Origin: Spirochaetes bacterium ADurb.BinA120
Lineage (GTDB): Bacteria; Spirochaetota; UBA4802; UBA5368
DNA: 61,184 nucleotides
Direction: 5' to 3'
NCBI GenBank assembly: GCA_002069125.1
Contig: MVZN01000013.1
Location: 1-61,184 of the forward strand
The translations under genes and the position numbers were made by a program. The notes beneath the pieces were generated by a model. That model did no database searches. It had not been told where the DNA came from and worked only from the letters and a program-made list of their open reading frames with translations. Of this stretch, positions 22,529 through 61,184 are shown in pieces. How positions within the stretch are numbered: the stretch's first letter is position 1; every line of letters starts with the position of its first letter.

Positions 22529-24271
22529 ATGCGAAAGCACTTCGCGTCAGCGCTTCTCGTAATACTCGCGGCTGTTCCCGCCGCCGGACTGGAAGTCGAC
22601 ATAGACGAGCTTAAAAAGGCCGGGAAAATCGAGTTTATCAACTATACCGGCCCGTGGCGGGCCCAGGACAGCGTTTCCGAGGTTAAGTCGATCGGCGCAC
22701 GGCTTGCCGCCGCGGCCGAGAAGCGCGGCGAAAACGAGCGGATCAATTATTATATGAAGTATTCGCTCATCCGGGCAATTTCGAAAGATGAACCAGGGAA
22801 GCTTTCGGCCGACATCATCTCCATCGACAAAGAGGCCAGGGTAACGCATATACAGTACATCCGCCGGATACTTTCGGGATATTTCGAGCGAATGTACGGA
22901 TACTCCGAAAAGAACGCCTATACGCTCGCGGTGTTCACCACCTATTACAACGCCGTATATCGCGGTGACATGGATTACTTCGGCAAGGCGTACAAAAAGG
23001 TGGTCGCTAAAAACCTCACCGCGGCGAACGCCGGCCTCGCCACGCGATACGATAAGTGGCCCGGAGCGACCCGTATGGTCATTCCGCTTACCGAGGAGGC
23101 CAAGCGCGGCGCGATCGACTCGATCGACCCGGACATCATCTCCGATAAAAAGGTGCGGACCGCCGTCCGGAAGGAGGACGAAAACCTGGAGCAGCGCAAA
23201 GACCTGGCGGACATTAAAGAAAAAATAATAGAAAAAGAAAAAAAGGAGACCGCTGAAAAAAAAGCGGACCTCGCCGACAAGTCGCGTGACGCCGAGAAGG
23301 AAAAAAAGCGCGTGGAGGCGGAGAGGGCGGACGTCGAGCGAAAAAAACTTGAACAGGCGCGGGAAGAGCGAAAACTGAAGGACGAAAAGGAAAAGGCGAA
23401 GAGCATAGCGGACCCGGAGCAGAAAAAGAAAAAGGAGGAGGAAATAGCCTCCCGCGAGGAAAAGCAGAAGGAAGAAAAACGGAAAACCGCCGAAAAGGAA
23501 AAGACCGTCGCCAGTGAAGAGAAGAGGGTCGCCCAAAAACAGGAGGAAATAAGGAAGGAGGAGAAAAAACTCGCCGAGAAGGAATCGAAGACGGCGAAGA
23601 AAGAGGAGGCCCTGAAGGAGGAGAAGAAAGAGATAGCGAAAGACGAGCTTAAAAAAGAGATAAAAGAGAGCCCCGAGCGCGCCAAGGCCAAGCTCGAGGA
23701 GAAGGAGAAGGAGCTCGACAAGCGCGAGGACGAGCTCCGCAGCAAGGAGCTCGACAGGAGCGTATTCGCGGAAAAACTCTACTATCTCAAAATCAAGGAA
23801 TACCTCGAGGCGGGCCATTACAACAACGAGATGTACATGATAAACGCGGCCACAAGGAAGGTGATGTTCAAGTCGCCTGTCGAGAACATCTGCGGCTCCC
23901 GCTATGACGTTTTCTCCGGCGGGGTCGCGGTCATCGTCCACCAGGGCGACCACAGGACGGGACACAGGCTCGTCCTCCTGGACCGGGAGACTCTTAAGGA
24001 ATCGAAGCGTGGAAAGGACGATATTTTCTGGCGCAGTTTCGTCGAGATACGGGACGGCTTCATCTACGCCGTAATGGTGGATAAGGGGAAATACTACCTG
24101 GGACGCTATGACGGCGCTCTGGAGCGCACGGCCCTCTCGCAGGAGGCGGTAAGCGAGAACACCTTTATAAGCTTCTACGGCGAGTACGTATACATCAACC
24201 GGCACGACAAGAAGATACTGGTGCTTAAAAAGGACGACCTCTCGCTCGTCGAGGTGATAGAGCCCAGGTAG
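22529..24271 (+). CDS. P83/100 family protein (spirochaete antigen homologue)
   Basis: Exported protein of 580 residues. Signal peptide 1-19; N-terminal domain 20-215 with INYTGP, IRRILSGY, YNAVYRGD, NAGLATRYDKWPG and VIPL, which line up with Borrelia P83/100; then a long charged coiled coil rich in Glu and Lys about 215-410; then a beta-rich C-terminal domain with repeated short strands. The Borrelia protein is a periplasmic or membrane-associated antigen without known enzymatic activity. This gene is the strongest taxonomic marker in the window. Only three bases separate its stop from the stop of the convergent Xer gene. Confidence 0.9.
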   Translation: MRKHFASALLVILAAVPAAGLEVDIDELKKAGKIEFINYTGPWRAQDSVSEVKSIGARLAAAAEKRGENERINYYMKYSLIRAISKDEPGKLSADIISIDKEARVTHIQYIRRILSGYFERMYGYSEKNAYTLAVFTTYYNAVYRGDMDYFGKAYKKVVAKNLTAANAGLATRYDKWPGATRMVIPLTEEAKRGAIDSIDPDIISDKKVRTAVRKEDENLEQRKDLADIKEKIIEKEKKETAEKKADLADKSRDAEKEKKRVEAERADVERKKLEQAREERKLKDEKEKAKSIADPEQKKKKEEEIASREEKQKEEKRKTAEKEKTVASEEKRVAQKQEEIRKEEKKLAEKESKTAKKEEALKEEKKEIAKDELKKEIKESPERAKAKLEEKEKELDKREDELRSKELDRSVFAEKLYYLKIKEYLEAGHYNNEMYMINAATRKVMFKSPVENICGSRYDVFSGGVAVIVHQGDHRTGHRLVLLDRETLKESKRGKDDIFWRSFVEIRDGFIYAVMVDKGKYYLGRYDGALERTALSQEAVSENTFISFYGEYVYINRHDKKILVLKKDDLSLVEVIEPR

Positions 24272-55138: not shown

Positions 55139-55211
55139 GGGCGCTTAGCTCAGCCGGGAGAGCATCTGCCTTACAAGCAGAGGGTCGCAGGTTCGATCCC
55201 TGCAGCGCCCA
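55139..55211 (+). tRNA. tRNA-Val (UAC)
   Basis: A 73-base cloverleaf: acceptor GGGCGCT/AGCGCCC plus discriminator A; anticodon stem TCTGC/GCAGA around CTTACAA, giving anticodon TAC; T arm GCAGG/CCTGC with TTCGATC. CCA is not encoded. An integrase gene starts 111 bases downstream, so its 3' end is the probable attachment site. Confidence 0.95.
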
Positions 55212-55321: not shown

Positions 55322-56503
55322 ATGAAGAAGCGAACAAAGGGATTTAATCTTTACCGTCGTGGCGACACCTGGTACTGCCGTGTATGGGATCAGGACGGTG
55401 GACGGTACACGTCGGCAAAATCCACCGGGGAGCAGGACCGCGACAGAGCATCAATGCGGGCCGCCGAAATGATCCGGAACGGCGAGTTTCGGCTCCATGA
55501 AGAGGATCCCCTATTCCACCAGCTTTATATTGAGTACTGGACGAACCGCAACGACCTTTCCCCGAAATACAAACGCGACGTTTTCAGGTTTTACGAAAAA
55601 TACCTGCGGGACGCGCCCGAACTACAATGCCGGACTTCCCGCCTCGCCGCCTATCAATTCAACCGACTGATCGACCGCCTCGAGCGGTCCGGCACCACCC
55701 CGCGAATGATGAACCGGGTTTTACAGAACGCGAAAACCTTCATTGCATGGGCGAAGCGCCGCGGGTACATCGCGCAAAACTTCAGCGATGAAATCGACCG
55801 CAAAAAAGAGGGGCTACAAGAACGAGGATTTTTTACACTTCAAGAAGTATTTTCGTTTGCCCGCGTGGAGTTTCCAGATATTCGCGTAAAATGCGCGGTG
55901 CTCCTGGGCTGCCTAGGAGGGTTACGACGCGGCGAAATCATGGCCTTAAGATGGGAGGACGTTGATTTTGAACAGGGTGTTATTCACATCAGGCGAAACT
56001 ATACCGGTGACCGCGACCATGCCGGGAACCCTGTTTTCCGTCAACCGAAGATGGGATCGACCGGGACAATTCCAGTACTCCACATCCCAGAATTGCGGCG
56101 AGTGCTCGCGGACGTGCTCGCTGAAACCCCATTTAAAGAACCGCGGCACCTGGTTTTACAGAACACCTGGGAGCGGCGGCGGTCGAACGCGGCCACATCC
56201 GACGGTGAAACACCCCTTAGTGACAGCACCCTAAAGCGTGGCTTCGCCGAAATCTGTATGGCCATCGGGATTTCACCCGACCAGATTCAAGAGCGGCGGC
56301 TCACGTTTCACAGCACACGACATGCGTTTATAACTCACATGAGCGCACACGCCCGCGCCGGGATCGTCCGGCAATTCTCAAGGCAATCATCCGAAAAGAT
56401 GGTTGAGCACTATCAGCACCGCGACGGCGAGGCGATGCTCGACGCCGTGGACAGCTTTAACCGCGGGCTCGACGTGTACCGGGAGCGGCCGGCCCTTAAC
56501 TGA
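55322..56503 (+). CDS. Tyrosine integrase
   Basis: Site-specific recombinase of 393 residues. N-terminal arm-binding region (about 5-55), core-binding SAM-like domain 60-165, catalytic domain with Arg in LGGLRRGEIMALRWEDVDF, Lys in the beta hairpin, HSTRHAFITHM with His and Arg, and the Tyr in MVEHYQHRD. The role is integration at, and excision from, the tRNA-Val 3' end. AAGGGG precedes the ATG. It is the first gene of the element. Confidence 0.9.
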   Translation: MKKRTKGFNLYRRGDTWYCRVWDQDGGRYTSAKSTGEQDRDRASMRAAEMIRNGEFRLHEEDPLFHQLYIEYWTNRNDLSPKYKRDVFRFYEKYLRDAPELQCRTSRLAAYQFNRLIDRLERSGTTPRMMNRVLQNAKTFIAWAKRRGYIAQNFSDEIDRKKEGLQERGFFTLQEVFSFARVEFPDIRVKCAVLLGCLGGLRRGEIMALRWEDVDFEQGVIHIRRNYTGDRDHAGNPVFRQPKMGSTGTIPVLHIPELRRVLADVLAETPFKEPRHLVLQNTWERRRSNAATSDGETPLSDSTLKRGFAEICMAIGISPDQIQERRLTFHSTRHAFITHMSAHARAGIVRQFSRQSSEKMVEHYQHRDGEAMLDAVDSFNRGLDVYRERPALN

Positions 56504-56545
56504 GCGTACACTCCCGGGGATAGCGCGACGGTGCGAAAAGCGGCG

Positions 56546-56573
56546 ATCCTGGCCGCCGGCCCCGGGATTTTTA
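56546..56573 (+). terminator. Candidate terminator after the integrase
   Basis: An imperfect GC-rich hairpin (ATCC-GGCC with GGCC-GGAT) followed by five T lies 43 bases after the integrase stop. Confidence 0.4.
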
Positions 56574-56605
56574 TAACAGGAACCCGTAAAAGGAGGCGGG
56601 GAAGG

Positions 56606-57552: not shown

Positions 57553-57738
57553 ATGACTAGTCTTACAAATAACGAGCGACCGTGGCTCACGCCGAAAGAG
57601 GTTGCGGCGCTCACTGCGCAATCAGAGCCGACAATCCGGCGACAGTGCTATTCGGGAATTCTACCCTCGCGCAAATTCGGAAGGGCGCTTCGCATACCGC
57701 GCGCAGCGGTTGAACCGAAACGGAGCGGCGAGGCATAA
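57553..57738 (+). CDS. Excisionase-like HTH protein
   Basis: Protein of 61 residues with WLTPKEVAALTAQSEPTIRRQCYSGILPSRKFGRALRIPRAAV, the winged HTH_17/excisionase pattern (helix, helix, arginine-rich wing). It probably directs excision by the integrase or controls early element genes. GGGAGG precedes the ATG. It is the first gene of the replication operon. Confidence 0.82.
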   Translation: MTSLTNNERPWLTPKEVAALTAQSEPTIRRQCYSGILPSRKFGRALRIPRAAVEPKRSGEA

Positions 57739-57795: not shown

Positions 57796-58062
57796 ATGGA
57801 CAAATCAAAATTTAAGACGCTGAGCCGTCCGCGTCAAGTCAAAAACAGAATGCCGGAACAATATTTTGAGTTCTACCGGGGCGGACGTTTTTTCTACGCC
57901 GACCGGCGGGGGAATTTGAATTCAAACCCGGATAAATGGTTGCTCGACGACGGGCACATCAACGAGGTGTTCGTCGGTCGTGAGCTCGCAGAAATAGAGC
58001 ACGAAATTTTGAAATATTTTTACCCGAAAACCGCGGCGGCGCGTTCGAAGGTCCAGCGATGA
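57796..58062 (+). CDS. Small element protein, unknown
   Basis: Protein of 88 residues with a basic start and an aromatic core (YFEFYRGGRFFYADRRG). Not recognised. GAGGAG precedes the ATG. Its TGA overlaps the primase ATG (ATGA), so the two are translated together. Confidence 0.65.
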   Translation: MDKSKFKTLSRPRQVKNRMPEQYFEFYRGGRFFYADRRGNLNSNPDKWLLDDGHINEVFVGRELAEIEHEILKYFYPKTAAARSKVQR

Positions 58063-58808
58063 CCCCGTCTGATCTGATTTTCTCGCGCAGCGGCTACACT
58101 CTCCCGGCTCATCCCGACGGTCGCCCGCGGTGCAAGGACCTCGACGAAAACCGCATCCGATCCCGTGGCCAGCTCGCCGAGGCATACAGGCGCGGCACAC
58201 GTCGTTTCGTATTCCCGCCGACGTCGGCGCGGATGGTGGGTGTTGACCTCGATATGAAATCCGGCAAGGATGGAATCGCCGCTTATCGTGAAATCACCGG
58301 CATCGATCCGCGCGACGGGTTTCACACATCCACGCCGAGCGGCGGTGTGCACGTTTATTTTTTTACCGACGGAACGGATTATGTCTCGTGCGAAATCCGC
58401 CCGGGCGTTGAAATAAAATCGCGCGCATTTATTACCTTACCCGGCAGCCGTTCAGATCGTGGAGTGTACATCCCACACGGAGACCCCGCCGAAATTGGAG
58501 ACATTCCGGCCGCGCTCGCGGCGATCCTTCCGGTCCGGCGTACCGAGCCCGAACCCTTGCCGGCGAGGCCCGCAAATGCGGAGGTGCTCCCGCTCGCTCG
58601 TATTTTCGAGACCGTCGTTTCCCAGGGCACCGCGCCGCTCGCAGGCTCGCGGAATCAATTCATATTCTCGTTCGCTCGTTTCGCACGGCGCAAGGGACAC
58701 AATCTCGAATCCGTCGTGCACTACCTTTCGTCCTTCGCGAGTGCCGATTTTTCCACCCGGGAGATATGGTCCACCGTTCGGAGTGCGTGGCGCGGGGGCT
58801 CGCGATGA
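58059..58808 (+). CDS. Prim-Pol family primase/polymerase
   Basis: Protein of 249 residues with the archaeo-eukaryotic primase (Prim-Pol) domain: metal ligands Asp63/Asp65 in GVDLDMKSG, His98 in TPSGGVHVYFF, and EIKSRAFITLPGS for nucleotide binding. A C-terminal helical PriCT-like segment follows (NQFIFSFARFARRKG). Such domains prime and extend DNA for phages and plasmids. It overlaps the helicase gene (ATGA), so the replication module is split into two coupled proteins. Confidence 0.85.
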   Translation: MTPSDLIFSRSGYTLPAHPDGRPRCKDLDENRIRSRGQLAEAYRRGTRRFVFPPTSARMVGVDLDMKSGKDGIAAYREITGIDPRDGFHTSTPSGGVHVYFFTDGTDYVSCEIRPGVEIKSRAFITLPGSRSDRGVYIPHGDPAEIGDIPAALAAILPVRRTEPEPLPARPANAEVLPLARIFETVVSQGTAPLAGSRNQFIFSFARFARRKGHNLESVVHYLSSFASADFSTREIWSTVRSAWRGGSR

Positions 58809-60241
58809 TAGTTGAAATTAAGCGCGAAGCCGTCCCGACGCTACCTTCTGTTTCACGTGGCACAATTACTATGCCCGCGGACTGGACGTTTCGGCCCTCT
58901 GATCTGTCAAATTCGCAGATATTCGCGGCGCTCGCTCGCGGGCGCATCCTGTATGTGCCGGAACTTAAAAGCTGGATTAAATATGACGGCACTCGGTGGG
59001 TAAAGGATTCTCAGCGCGTGGCGGTCGAAAATATCTGTATCGAGGCAATACAGGCTGTTTATGCACTGAGCGCTGCCGCTGAAAATGAGCAGGCCCGCAA
59101 AACCTATGCCGCATGGGCCCTCCGTTCTGAGGACGAAAGCCGGCGGCGCGCGATGGTGGCCGGGGCCGAACGTGTGCAAGCGCTCATCAAGCCCCTTTCT
59201 CATTTTGACCGCGACATATATTTATACAATTGCGAAAACGGAACACTCAATCTTAAAACCGGCGATCTCCAACCGCATCGAGAGGACGATTATCTCATGC
59301 ACATCGGCGGGACTTATTACGATCCAAATGCAGAGTGTCCATTATGGATGGATACAATACAAAAGGCGTTCCGGGGCGATGCAGAAACCATCGAATTCTA
59401 TCAGCGATTTTCCGGGTACACCCTGACCGGGCATGTTATGGAAAAAGTAATTGCTTTTCTTTATGGGGCCCGGGGGGACAACGGAAAATCAACCATCACG
59501 AACGCCGAAGGTGAAATTCTCGGTGACTATCACATGAAAATGTCGGCCTCAACGCTTCTTGCAGGCAGCCGTCGCGATCCCGGGGGGCCGAGCGAAGACC
59601 TTGCACGCATCGCAGGCAAGCGGCGCATCACAGCCTCCGAGCTGCCGGAGGGCGCGCGATGGAATGATTCACTATTAAAAGACCTTTCCGGCGGCGATAG
59701 TATCAACGCGCGACACCTTCACGCCGAGTCGTTCGACTTCATCCCACAAGCGAAGCTCGTTATTTTCGGGAATCACAAGCCCGCCGTACGTGGCGGAGAT
59801 AATGCAGTTCGGAATCGAATACGAATGATTCCGTTCAACCACGTATTCAAGCCGAAAGATCGAGATATGCCAGAAAAGCTCCGCGCAGAGTATCCCGGAA
59901 TCCTTCGATGGATGGTTGAAGGCTGTATGAAATGGCAGTCCGCCGACAGCCTGGGAGAGCCCGGCACGGTCACAAGAGAAACGGACGCTTATTTTCTCGA
60001 AAACAACCCCTTGAAACAATTCATGGATGACCGGTTCGAGCTCTCTGAAAACGAGAAGGTGCCCTTCAAAAATGTGTACGAGGATTTTCGCGAATTCACC
60101 GGATCGACGAAGCTGTCAAAGGTCAAATTTTCGATGATAATGCAGGATCAATACCCCGTCCACGTCGCAGCGGGACACGGAAATGAGCGCTTTATTTATG
60201 GACTTCGGCCAAAAAATGACGCGCGGCGGGATTTATTATGA
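58805..60241 (+). CDS. D5/P4-type superfamily 3 replicative helicase
   Basis: Protein of 478 residues: an N-terminal D5_N-like domain (about 25-190), then an SF3 helicase with Walker A GARGDNGKST (Lys228), Walker B-like ITASELPEG, motif C in LVIFGNHKP, and an arginine-finger region RNRIRMIPF. It unwinds the element's origin and works with the Prim-Pol. The ATG at 58805 overlaps the primase stop. The large inverted repeat begins six bases after its stop. Confidence 0.88.
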   Translation: MIVEIKREAVPTLPSVSRGTITMPADWTFRPSDLSNSQIFAALARGRILYVPELKSWIKYDGTRWVKDSQRVAVENICIEAIQAVYALSAAAENEQARKTYAAWALRSEDESRRRAMVAGAERVQALIKPLSHFDRDIYLYNCENGTLNLKTGDLQPHREDDYLMHIGGTYYDPNAECPLWMDTIQKAFRGDAETIEFYQRFSGYTLTGHVMEKVIAFLYGARGDNGKSTITNAEGEILGDYHMKMSASTLLAGSRRDPGGPSEDLARIAGKRRITASELPEGARWNDSLLKDLSGGDSINARHLHAESFDFIPQAKLVIFGNHKPAVRGGDNAVRNRIRMIPFNHVFKPKDRDMPEKLRAEYPGILRWMVEGCMKWQSADSLGEPGTVTRETDAYFLENNPLKQFMDDRFELSENEKVPFKNVYEDFREFTGSTKLSKVKFSMIMQDQYPVHVAAGHGNERFIYGLRPKNDARRDLL

Positions 60242-60246
60242 AGAGC

Positions 60247-60356
60247 CGGGTTAACGGGTTAACCATGTTAACTGAAAATACCTGTTTTTTTAACTCACAG
60301 CTCTCGTGAAGAAAAACCAGGGGTTTCAGTTAACCACGTTAACCCGTTAACCCGGA
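60247..60356. repeat. Large inverted repeat of three plus three GTTAAC units
   Basis: Arms 60247-60278 and 60325-60356 match at 29 of 32 positions (18 identical pairs, three mismatches, 11 identical pairs). Each arm holds three GTTAAC (251-256, 259-264, 268-273 and 330-335, 339-344, 347-352, offsets from 60000), spaced eight to nine bases. Pairing extends inward through CCTG/CAGG and T5/A5, so nearly the whole 110 bases can fold as one hairpin. It fills the gap between the helicase stop and the next gene's ribosome site. Confidence 0.9.
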
Positions 60357-60372
60357 AAAAGGAGGATAGGAC

Positions 60373-60747
60373 ATGGAAAAGTACATAATTATCACAACAC
60401 CCGATCCAGAGTACCGTAAATCGAACCGGTGGTTCGACCAGTGCGAACGAGAACACCGCCCATTCGTAAAAATCGTCAAGAAAACGCGATACTATGAGCT
60501 CCACTGGGATTATATCAGCCTGTGCGCGAAGGGCCGATTTGAGATGACAAAGGAAGGGCTCGAACAGTCTCACGCCTTCATGTGCAGGCATTGGCCACTC
60601 AAAAGGCCCTTTTGGTATTACGGACCGGTGGGATCGATCCCCAAACTTACCCTTGAACAAGCTCGAAAAGCGGCGGTCGAGATATACGACCTTCTCGCCT
60701 CGCAGCCCGTCTTCACATATCCCGGAGGGGGCGACAATGGACGCTAG
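60373..60747 (+). CDS. Element protein of unknown function
   Basis: Protein of 124 residues, aromatic and charged (MEKYIIITTPDPEYRKSNRWFD), with no recognised motif. A strong AAGGAGG site precedes the ATG, right after the inverted repeat. It overlaps the next small gene by 11 bases. Confidence 0.7.
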   Translation: MEKYIIITTPDPEYRKSNRWFDQCEREHRPFVKIVKKTRYYELHWDYISLCAKGRFEMTKEGLEQSHAFMCRHWPLKRPFWYYGPVGSIPKLTLEQARKAAVEIYDLLASQPVFTYPGGGDNGR

Positions 60748-60838
60748 AAAAGAATACGTTCTCTTGTGGCTCCGAATGGCGGACCTTTACGCACGGATGC
60801 GGCGGATGCGGAGGAATTACTGTGAAAGTGGTGCATAA
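60737..60838 (+). CDS. Small basic protein of 33 residues
   Basis: MDARKEYVLLWLRMADLYARMRRMRRNYCESGA: a short helical, Arg-rich peptide. GGAGG lies six to ten bases before the ATG, inside the previous gene's end. Its last codons and TAA form the first copy of the GGTGCATAA repeat. Not recognised; too short for a firm call. Confidence 0.5.
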   Translation: MDARKEYVLLWLRMADLYARMRRMRRNYCESGA

Positions 60839-60975
60839 GGTGCATAAGGTGCATAACTCACCCCTACGGGGAATTTTCACGAATGGGGGTATAAACCTTA
60901 TATATAGCAATATGTATAGAAAAGCAAAAAATACAGGGAGGGTCAACTGTGCACTTTATACACCTTATGCACCAC
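60828..60975. repeat. Inverted iteron cassette of GGTGCATAA units
   Basis: Three perfect tandem copies of GGTGCATAA (60830-60838, 60839-60847, 60848-60856) face inverted copies at 60965-60973 (perfect), 60956-60964 (one change) and 60947-60955 (6 of 9). The arms enclose about 90 bases: a CCCC/GGGG hairpin near 60861-60871 and an AT-rich core with TATATATA near 60900. The layout is that of the first cassette with a different motif. Confidence 0.85.
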
Positions 60976-60996
60976 TCAAAGCAATGGAGGCATGAT

Positions 60997-61068
60997 ATGA
61001 TTTTTACGGAATCGATTCTCGCGCTGTTCGCGCTCATTATCTTGGTTGCCGGGGGCCGGGGATGGTAA
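60997..61068 (+). CDS. Single-pass membrane microprotein of 23 residues
   Basis: Frame beginning MIFTESILALFALIILVAGG and ending RGW; almost all of it is one hydrophobic helix, so a membrane peptide. GGAGG lies six bases before the ATG. It directly follows the GGTGCATAA cassette and overlaps the next frame by seven bases. Unknown; it could be a holin-like or regulatory peptide. Confidence 0.5.
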   Translation: MIFTESILALFALIILVAGGRGW

Positions 61069-61175
61069 GGGGGGCATCAAGGTACTGGGACGCGATCGAG
61101 CGCTTCGACGCGCATCAAACCGCGACCTCCCTTTTTCTCACGTGCGACAAGTTTTATAAAATACTAAAATGGTAA
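61062..61175 (+). CDS. Small unknown protein of 37 residues
   Basis: Frame begins MVRGASRYWDAIERFD and ends FYKILKW. It overlaps the microprotein. A GGGG stretch is directly upstream. Its stop codon lies inside the ATGGTAAT tandem repeat, as seen for the gene before the GGTGCATAA cassette. Not recognised. Confidence 0.45.
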   Translation: MVRGASRYWDAIERFDAHQTATSLFLTCDKFYKILKW

Positions 61176-61184
61176 TATGGTAAT
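61169..61184 (+). repeat. ATGGTAAT tandem repeat cut by window end
   Basis: Two perfect tandem copies of the octamer ATGGTAAT (61169-61176 and 61177-61184) end exactly at the window border. The array may continue. Confidence 0.5.

Follow-up and report, generated by a model that had tools for sequence, protein, structure and literature searches.

The 61,184-nucleotide stretch analyzed here (the window) is one entire contig, MVZN01000013.1 of Spirochaetes bacterium ADurb.BinA120, ending at position 61184, and an integrated element occupies it from 55 kb onward at a tRNA-Val gene. In this prophage, near the contig end, lies an inverted-repeat cassette, C2, which follows a first such cassette, C1. 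C2 is probably a second, displaced cassette of the replication-origin type. We assign it this putative role because of its anatomy, its position 3' of a primase-helicase gene of the P4/D5 family, and the recurrence of the same architecture in relatives. Its parts are as follows.

60827-60976, no strand: C2, whole cassette (inverted-repeat search, shuffles, folding)
60830-60856, plus strand: C2 left arm, three perfect tandem GGTGCATAA iterons (repeat analysis and Tandem Repeats Finder [TRF])
60857-60946, no strand: C2 AT-rich core, proposed melting site (composition; function suggested by the layout)
60947-60973, minus strand: C2 right arm, with outer GGTGCATAA (9/9), middle GGTGTATAA, and inner AGTGCACAG (repeat analysis)

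The left arm carries GGTGCATAA at 60830, 60839, and 60848, each copy matching at 9/9 positions in perfect tandem with a period of 9. These copies face inverted ones at 60965 (9/9), 60956 (8/9), and 60947 (6/9), exactly, to the base, as an earlier note made from the sequence alone had described them. Between them, the arms give rise to an inverted repeat of 37 nt (60827-60863 and 60940-60976) in which 31/37 positions (84%) are complementary. TRF recovered the array independently as one of only two in the window, and no further exact GGTGCATAA copy was found in the 61-kb window outside C2. When the region 60201-61184 was shuffled with dinucleotide composition preserved, neither an exact tandem pair facing its own inverse (≤1 mismatch) nor a triple tandem 9-mer arose in any of 3,000 shuffles (0/3,000 for each). 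The AT-rich core that the note had seen between the arms was borne out: these 90 bp are 61% AT, versus 42% for the window, only 0.8% of 90-bp windows are equally AT-rich, and TATATATA lies within the core at 60899-60906. C2 therefore has an AT-rich region between two opposed iteron sets, the arrangement of origins in phage-inducible chromosomal islands (PICIs) and of those served by P4-family helicases. The note was also right that a stop codon falls within the first iteron, since an open reading frame (ORF) of 33 residues (60737-60838) ends with the TAA of the copy at 60830; this ORF is plausibly a real gene, with GGAGG upstream.

The same note had proposed that such a structure could be an origin or a divergent operator. 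The origin half is supported by the helicase 3' ends of relatives, by phage A2, and by the PICIs, whereas the operator half is not: the ORFs on both sides run in one direction, the core yielded no sigma-70-type promoter, and a search of 60827-60976 gave no promoter-like site. C2 thus does not lie between divergently transcribed genes with promoters.

The cassette is predicted to fold very stably (-63.8 kcal/mol; z = -7), as might be expected if C2 acted as RNA, namely, as a long transcript hairpin between two small genes serving as an attenuator, processing site, or small RNA. Such a role need not be invoked and is very unlikely, given that any inverted repeat folds in this way, that there is neither a terminator tail nor an Rfam match at the cassette, and that the inverted copies of relatives are often out of register for one continuous stem. 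For instance, locus L014 has inverted GGTTACAC-type copies, yet its inverted-repeat score is 9 versus a control median of 8.5. The 37-nt arms could also be recombination sites of a phase switch, as the inverted repeats flank 76 bp that might invert; however, the arms are imperfect and made of tandem 9-mers, the core lacks a promoter, and the architecture goes with the helicase gene, which makes an invertible segment extremely improbable.

This architecture was surveyed in 160 loci with related helicases, drawn from bacterial genomes and viral contigs, using a detector that required a repeated word facing its inverse and nothing else. Within 500 bp of the helicase stop, the detector gave 71 hits across the 160 loci; elsewhere it was rarely triggered. 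An independent inverted-repeat score likewise reached 13 at 59% of 153 helicase 3' ends, versus 0% of control stretches. The repeat words vary by phage (GTTACTT, ATGACGGG, GGTGACG, GGTTAAC, and others), while the modal period is 9 and the core mostly spans 49 to 100 bp; in C2, the period is 9 and the core measures 90 bp. Because the same architecture occurs regularly at the helicase 3' end in relatives and is annotated (A2) or published (PICIs) as an origin, the survey supports reading C2 as an origin. The sequences also suggest that the inverted-iteron layout is common among prophages with P4-family helicases.

Adjacent cassettes with different words were observed at L023 (GGTTCAGTT and GGTCCACTT) and at L114 (GGTTAACG and GGTTATCG). 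The archaeal Methanoculleus virus Blf4 (L012, 4371-4680) carries three adjoining inverted-repeat cassettes with related but differing words behind its primase-helicase. At L157, the sole cassette of the phage (10139-10324) has seven TATGACA-type copies and is located 2.7 kb beyond the helicase, ahead of what is probably the gene for a terminase small subunit. Only the window, when set beside the relatives surveyed, showed a second cassette with genes between it and the first.

The other features of the element, including the helicase proposed as its initiator, are listed below.

55139-55211: tRNA-Val, integration site
55322-56503, plus strand: phage integrase, adjoining tRNA-Val
57553-57738, plus strand: excisionase/AlpA-type helix-turn-helix protein (HTH_17, TIGR01764)
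58059-58808, plus strand: Prim-Pol/PriCT-1 primase partner
58766-60241, plus strand: D5_N/DUF5906 superfamily 3 (SF3)-type helicase, phage/plasmid primase P4 family, proposed initiator
60248-60353, no strand: C1, GGGTTAAC x2 plus GTTAAC facing GTTAACC plus GTTAACCC x2, with core 60273-60328 (position as in relatives)
60373-60747, plus strand: 124-residue ORF between C1 and C2, possible DNA binder (sub-threshold Arm-DNA-bind_3 match)
60737-60838, plus strand: 33-residue ORF, stop codon in first C2 iteron
60997-61068, plus strand: 23-residue ORF, hydrophobic, directly after C2
61065-61175, plus strand: 36-residue ORF, ending in a possible third array
61169-61184, plus strand: ATGGTAAT x2, possible left arm of a third cassette (contig end)

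For the window helicase, TIGR01613 (phage/plasmid primase, P4 family) gives a match at 3.2e-75, and profile and fold searches reach hexameric primase-helicases, including that of SaPI5 (7ola). In its predicted model (mean pLDDT, 87), the C terminus runs helix-helix-strand-helix-helix-strand-strand, and residues about 400 to 482 are predicted to form a winged helix. Together, these results point to an SF3 helicase of the P4 family that would carry a domain for DNA binding. Its relatives come in part from spirochaete metagenome-assembled genomes, and no second D5_N gene was found in the genome.

Downstream of the helicase gene, C1, the 124-residue ORF, the 33-residue ORF, C2, two tiny ORFs, and ATGGTAAT x2 follow one another, with all ORFs co-directional. 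C1, which begins 6 bp beyond the helicase stop codon and so adjoins the proposed initiator gene on its 3' side, is the candidate primary origin of the element. The ATGGTAAT pair overlaps the stop codon of the 36-residue ORF, and the contig stops inside this array, which could represent the left arm of one more cassette, with its own, third motif. At 3 mismatches, no second arm was found for it in the genome beyond chance level, and ATGGTAAT-type matches in the host's order are single sites rather than cassettes.

At the other end of the element, an int-alpA RNA (RF02996; 51.8 bits) lies at 56513-56580, directly 3' of the integrase gene. Elsewhere in the window, a 580-residue ORF (22529-24271) has a long Lys/Glu-rich coiled-coil middle and an AT skew of +0.55; it presumably resembles the spirochaete P83/100 family. 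This ORF and the spirochaete genomes among the helicase relatives both suggest a spirochaete host.

Several results weigh against an origin at the position of C2. It starts 588 bp and two ORFs past the helicase stop and so does not lie immediately 3' of the initiator gene. Between +0.5 and +3.5 kb, the detector found no enrichment, with 12 hits in 861 bins versus a background of 29 in 2,508. The closest helicase relatives, L013 and L014, each have a single cassette, which lies at the end of the helicase gene, and lack one where C2 would be, so the location of C2 is not conserved. The comparison across relatives that the earlier note had advised showed the architecture to be conserved but not the motif. 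An expectation-maximization core profile built from the relatives' origin regions yielded a weak AACCCTT-like element and did not single out the C2 core. Finally, no protein of the element is known to bind GGTGCATAA.

The C2 motif was also matched in another prophage. A search of 296 related genomes at ≤2 mismatches led to an inverted pair in contig 12 of genome G025, whose host belongs to the same order. This cassette (G025:C12; L200:7723-7873) consists of GGTGCATAG x2 facing three inverted copies with a period of 9, and it lies directly behind a 600-residue ORF of the phrog_19930 polymerase/primase type. BLASTP of the window helicase against that ORF gave nothing beyond noise. The inner right copies are alike at 8/9 positions (AGTGCACAG in C2 and AGTGCATAG in L200), and the shared class, GGTGCATAR, differs from the C1 motif GGGTTAAC. 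An unbiased search for the degenerate motif GGTGYATARNGTGYATAR in 46 genomes from the host's order returned C2 and G025:C12 only. Among relatives with a callable word, 6% of pairs share it, a base rate that we attribute mostly to a single class of words that is common in Bacillaceae; the only partner of C2 is L200. Because 6% of pairs share a word, the match to L200 is by itself suggestive only, and the 46-genome search is the stronger evidence. In IMG/VR, the inverted-cassette pattern of the C2 motif was not found, and the two exact matches to GGTGCATAAGGTGCATAA fall in unrelated coding stretches and were taken as chance. Relatives of the C2-class helicase (P0001) were limited to G025 and one distant homologue in the 296 genomes, with none in IMG/VR by the patterns used.

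A second prophage of G025, on contig 82 (L013), encodes a D5 helicase 39% identical to that of the window and carries a GGTTAACC cassette of the C1 type. The window element thus unites two words that G025 has in separate prophages, the C1 type on contig 82 and the C2 class on contig 12. These two prophages share packaging-side genes (a 66-bp stretch is 97% identical, and several ORF segments are 35 to 68% alike, with terminase genes on contig 82), whereas their helicase and origin modules are unrelated. Since they differ in precisely this respect, helicase and cassette appear to be exchanged as one module.

If modules are swapped as units, C2 could have belonged to an earlier replication module and have stayed, inactive, after the module comprising helicase and C1 was exchanged, and its inner copies do deviate from the consensus. 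We nevertheless regard this explanation as quite unlikely. Upstream of C2 there is no helicase remnant but two intact small ORFs, and three perfect tandem copies with 31/37 arm matches suggest recent selection. Moreover, the likeness of the inner copies of C2 and L200 means that their variation is not plainly decay.

C2 might instead be a regulatory or auxiliary array, through which the element's own initiator or a small DNA-binding protein, such as the 124-residue product, controls replication or transcription, in a role like that of P4 crr or SPP1 oriR. The ORF for this product lies between C1 and C2 and has an arm-type DNA-binding match (E = 0.0036) that is weak and below cutoff; no useful family or solved structure was matched, and no relatives were found in IMG/VR or 148 genomes. 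In P4, both sites carry one common motif. SPP1 offers a precedent, as it has two similarly built origins in one phage, served by one binding protein, and a fork-stalling role is proposed for the second (PMC6316719). However, the two SPP1 sites have a repeat in common, whereas C1 and C2 do not: no exact GGGTTAAC occurs in C2 and no exact GGTGCATAA in C1. C2 also has the complete layout of an origin, including the AT-rich core, and that core is without a promoter-like site. A regulatory array is therefore unlikely.

For C2 as a displaced origin, we propose that the winged helix of the element's own helicase, or of another phage's helicase, would bind the repeats of both arms in opposite orientation. 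The bound helicases would then assemble as rings facing each other, the AT-rich core would melt, and the Prim-Pol partner would prime both strands. It is possible that the own helicase recognizes both words. Taken together, the two cassettes suggest that one element carries origins of two specificities, which may have come together through acquisition or exchange of replication modules. A more doubtful proposal is that C2, and perhaps the third array, is an origin of foreign specificity, whose recognition depends on the replication protein of phages that compete with this one or share its host. If so, C2 would either titrate a rival initiator, as a decoy resembling phage-encoded resistance (PER), or hitchhike on borrowed rival replication machinery. 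This raises the question of whether phages exploit one another's origins, be it for competition or for a free ride. The presence in one element of two cassettes that differ in specificity also makes it testable how narrow iteron recognition by P4-family helicases is. More broadly, the signal 3' of P4-family phage helicases, in which architecture is kept and sequence is not, locates candidate origins in many prophages.

Known systems share parts of this arrangement. For Sfi21 PER, extra copies of a phage origin are reported to interfere with the replication of an incoming phage, but no natural second origin of another specificity inside a phage is described in PMC6356513. Proteins of the Prim-Pol/SF3/winged-helix kind are proposed, for pRN1, to bind just 3' of their own gene, and the pRN1 stem-loop origin, located 3' of such a protein, is conserved in structure rather than sequence and remained functional after relocation (PMC4234260); unlike C2, it has no iterons. 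The G025:C12 cassette resembles C2 in architecture, period, motif class, and host order but differs in lying directly behind a different, phrog_19930-type helicase and in its unrelated core sequence. In Lactobacillus phage A2, the rep_origin is annotated directly 3' of a homologous primase-helicase gene and has an AT core flanked by inverted iterons, a layout repeated in the corresponding region of phi105; the A2 origin has a single motif, GGGAGGAT, and by position matches C1 rather than C2. PICI origins have two opposed iteron sets around an AT-rich region immediately 3' of rep, a layout that a 2018 paper held to be shared by no other known bacterial replicon and thus unique to these islands. 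C2 has the same layout as the PICIs SaPI and EcCICFT073, and the window helicase resembles that of SaPI5 (7ola), but C2 is set back by a further 588 bp, follows another cassette of this kind, and differs from it in motif. The architecture is thus already known; the unusual variant here is a second cassette, set apart by genes and differing in specificity.
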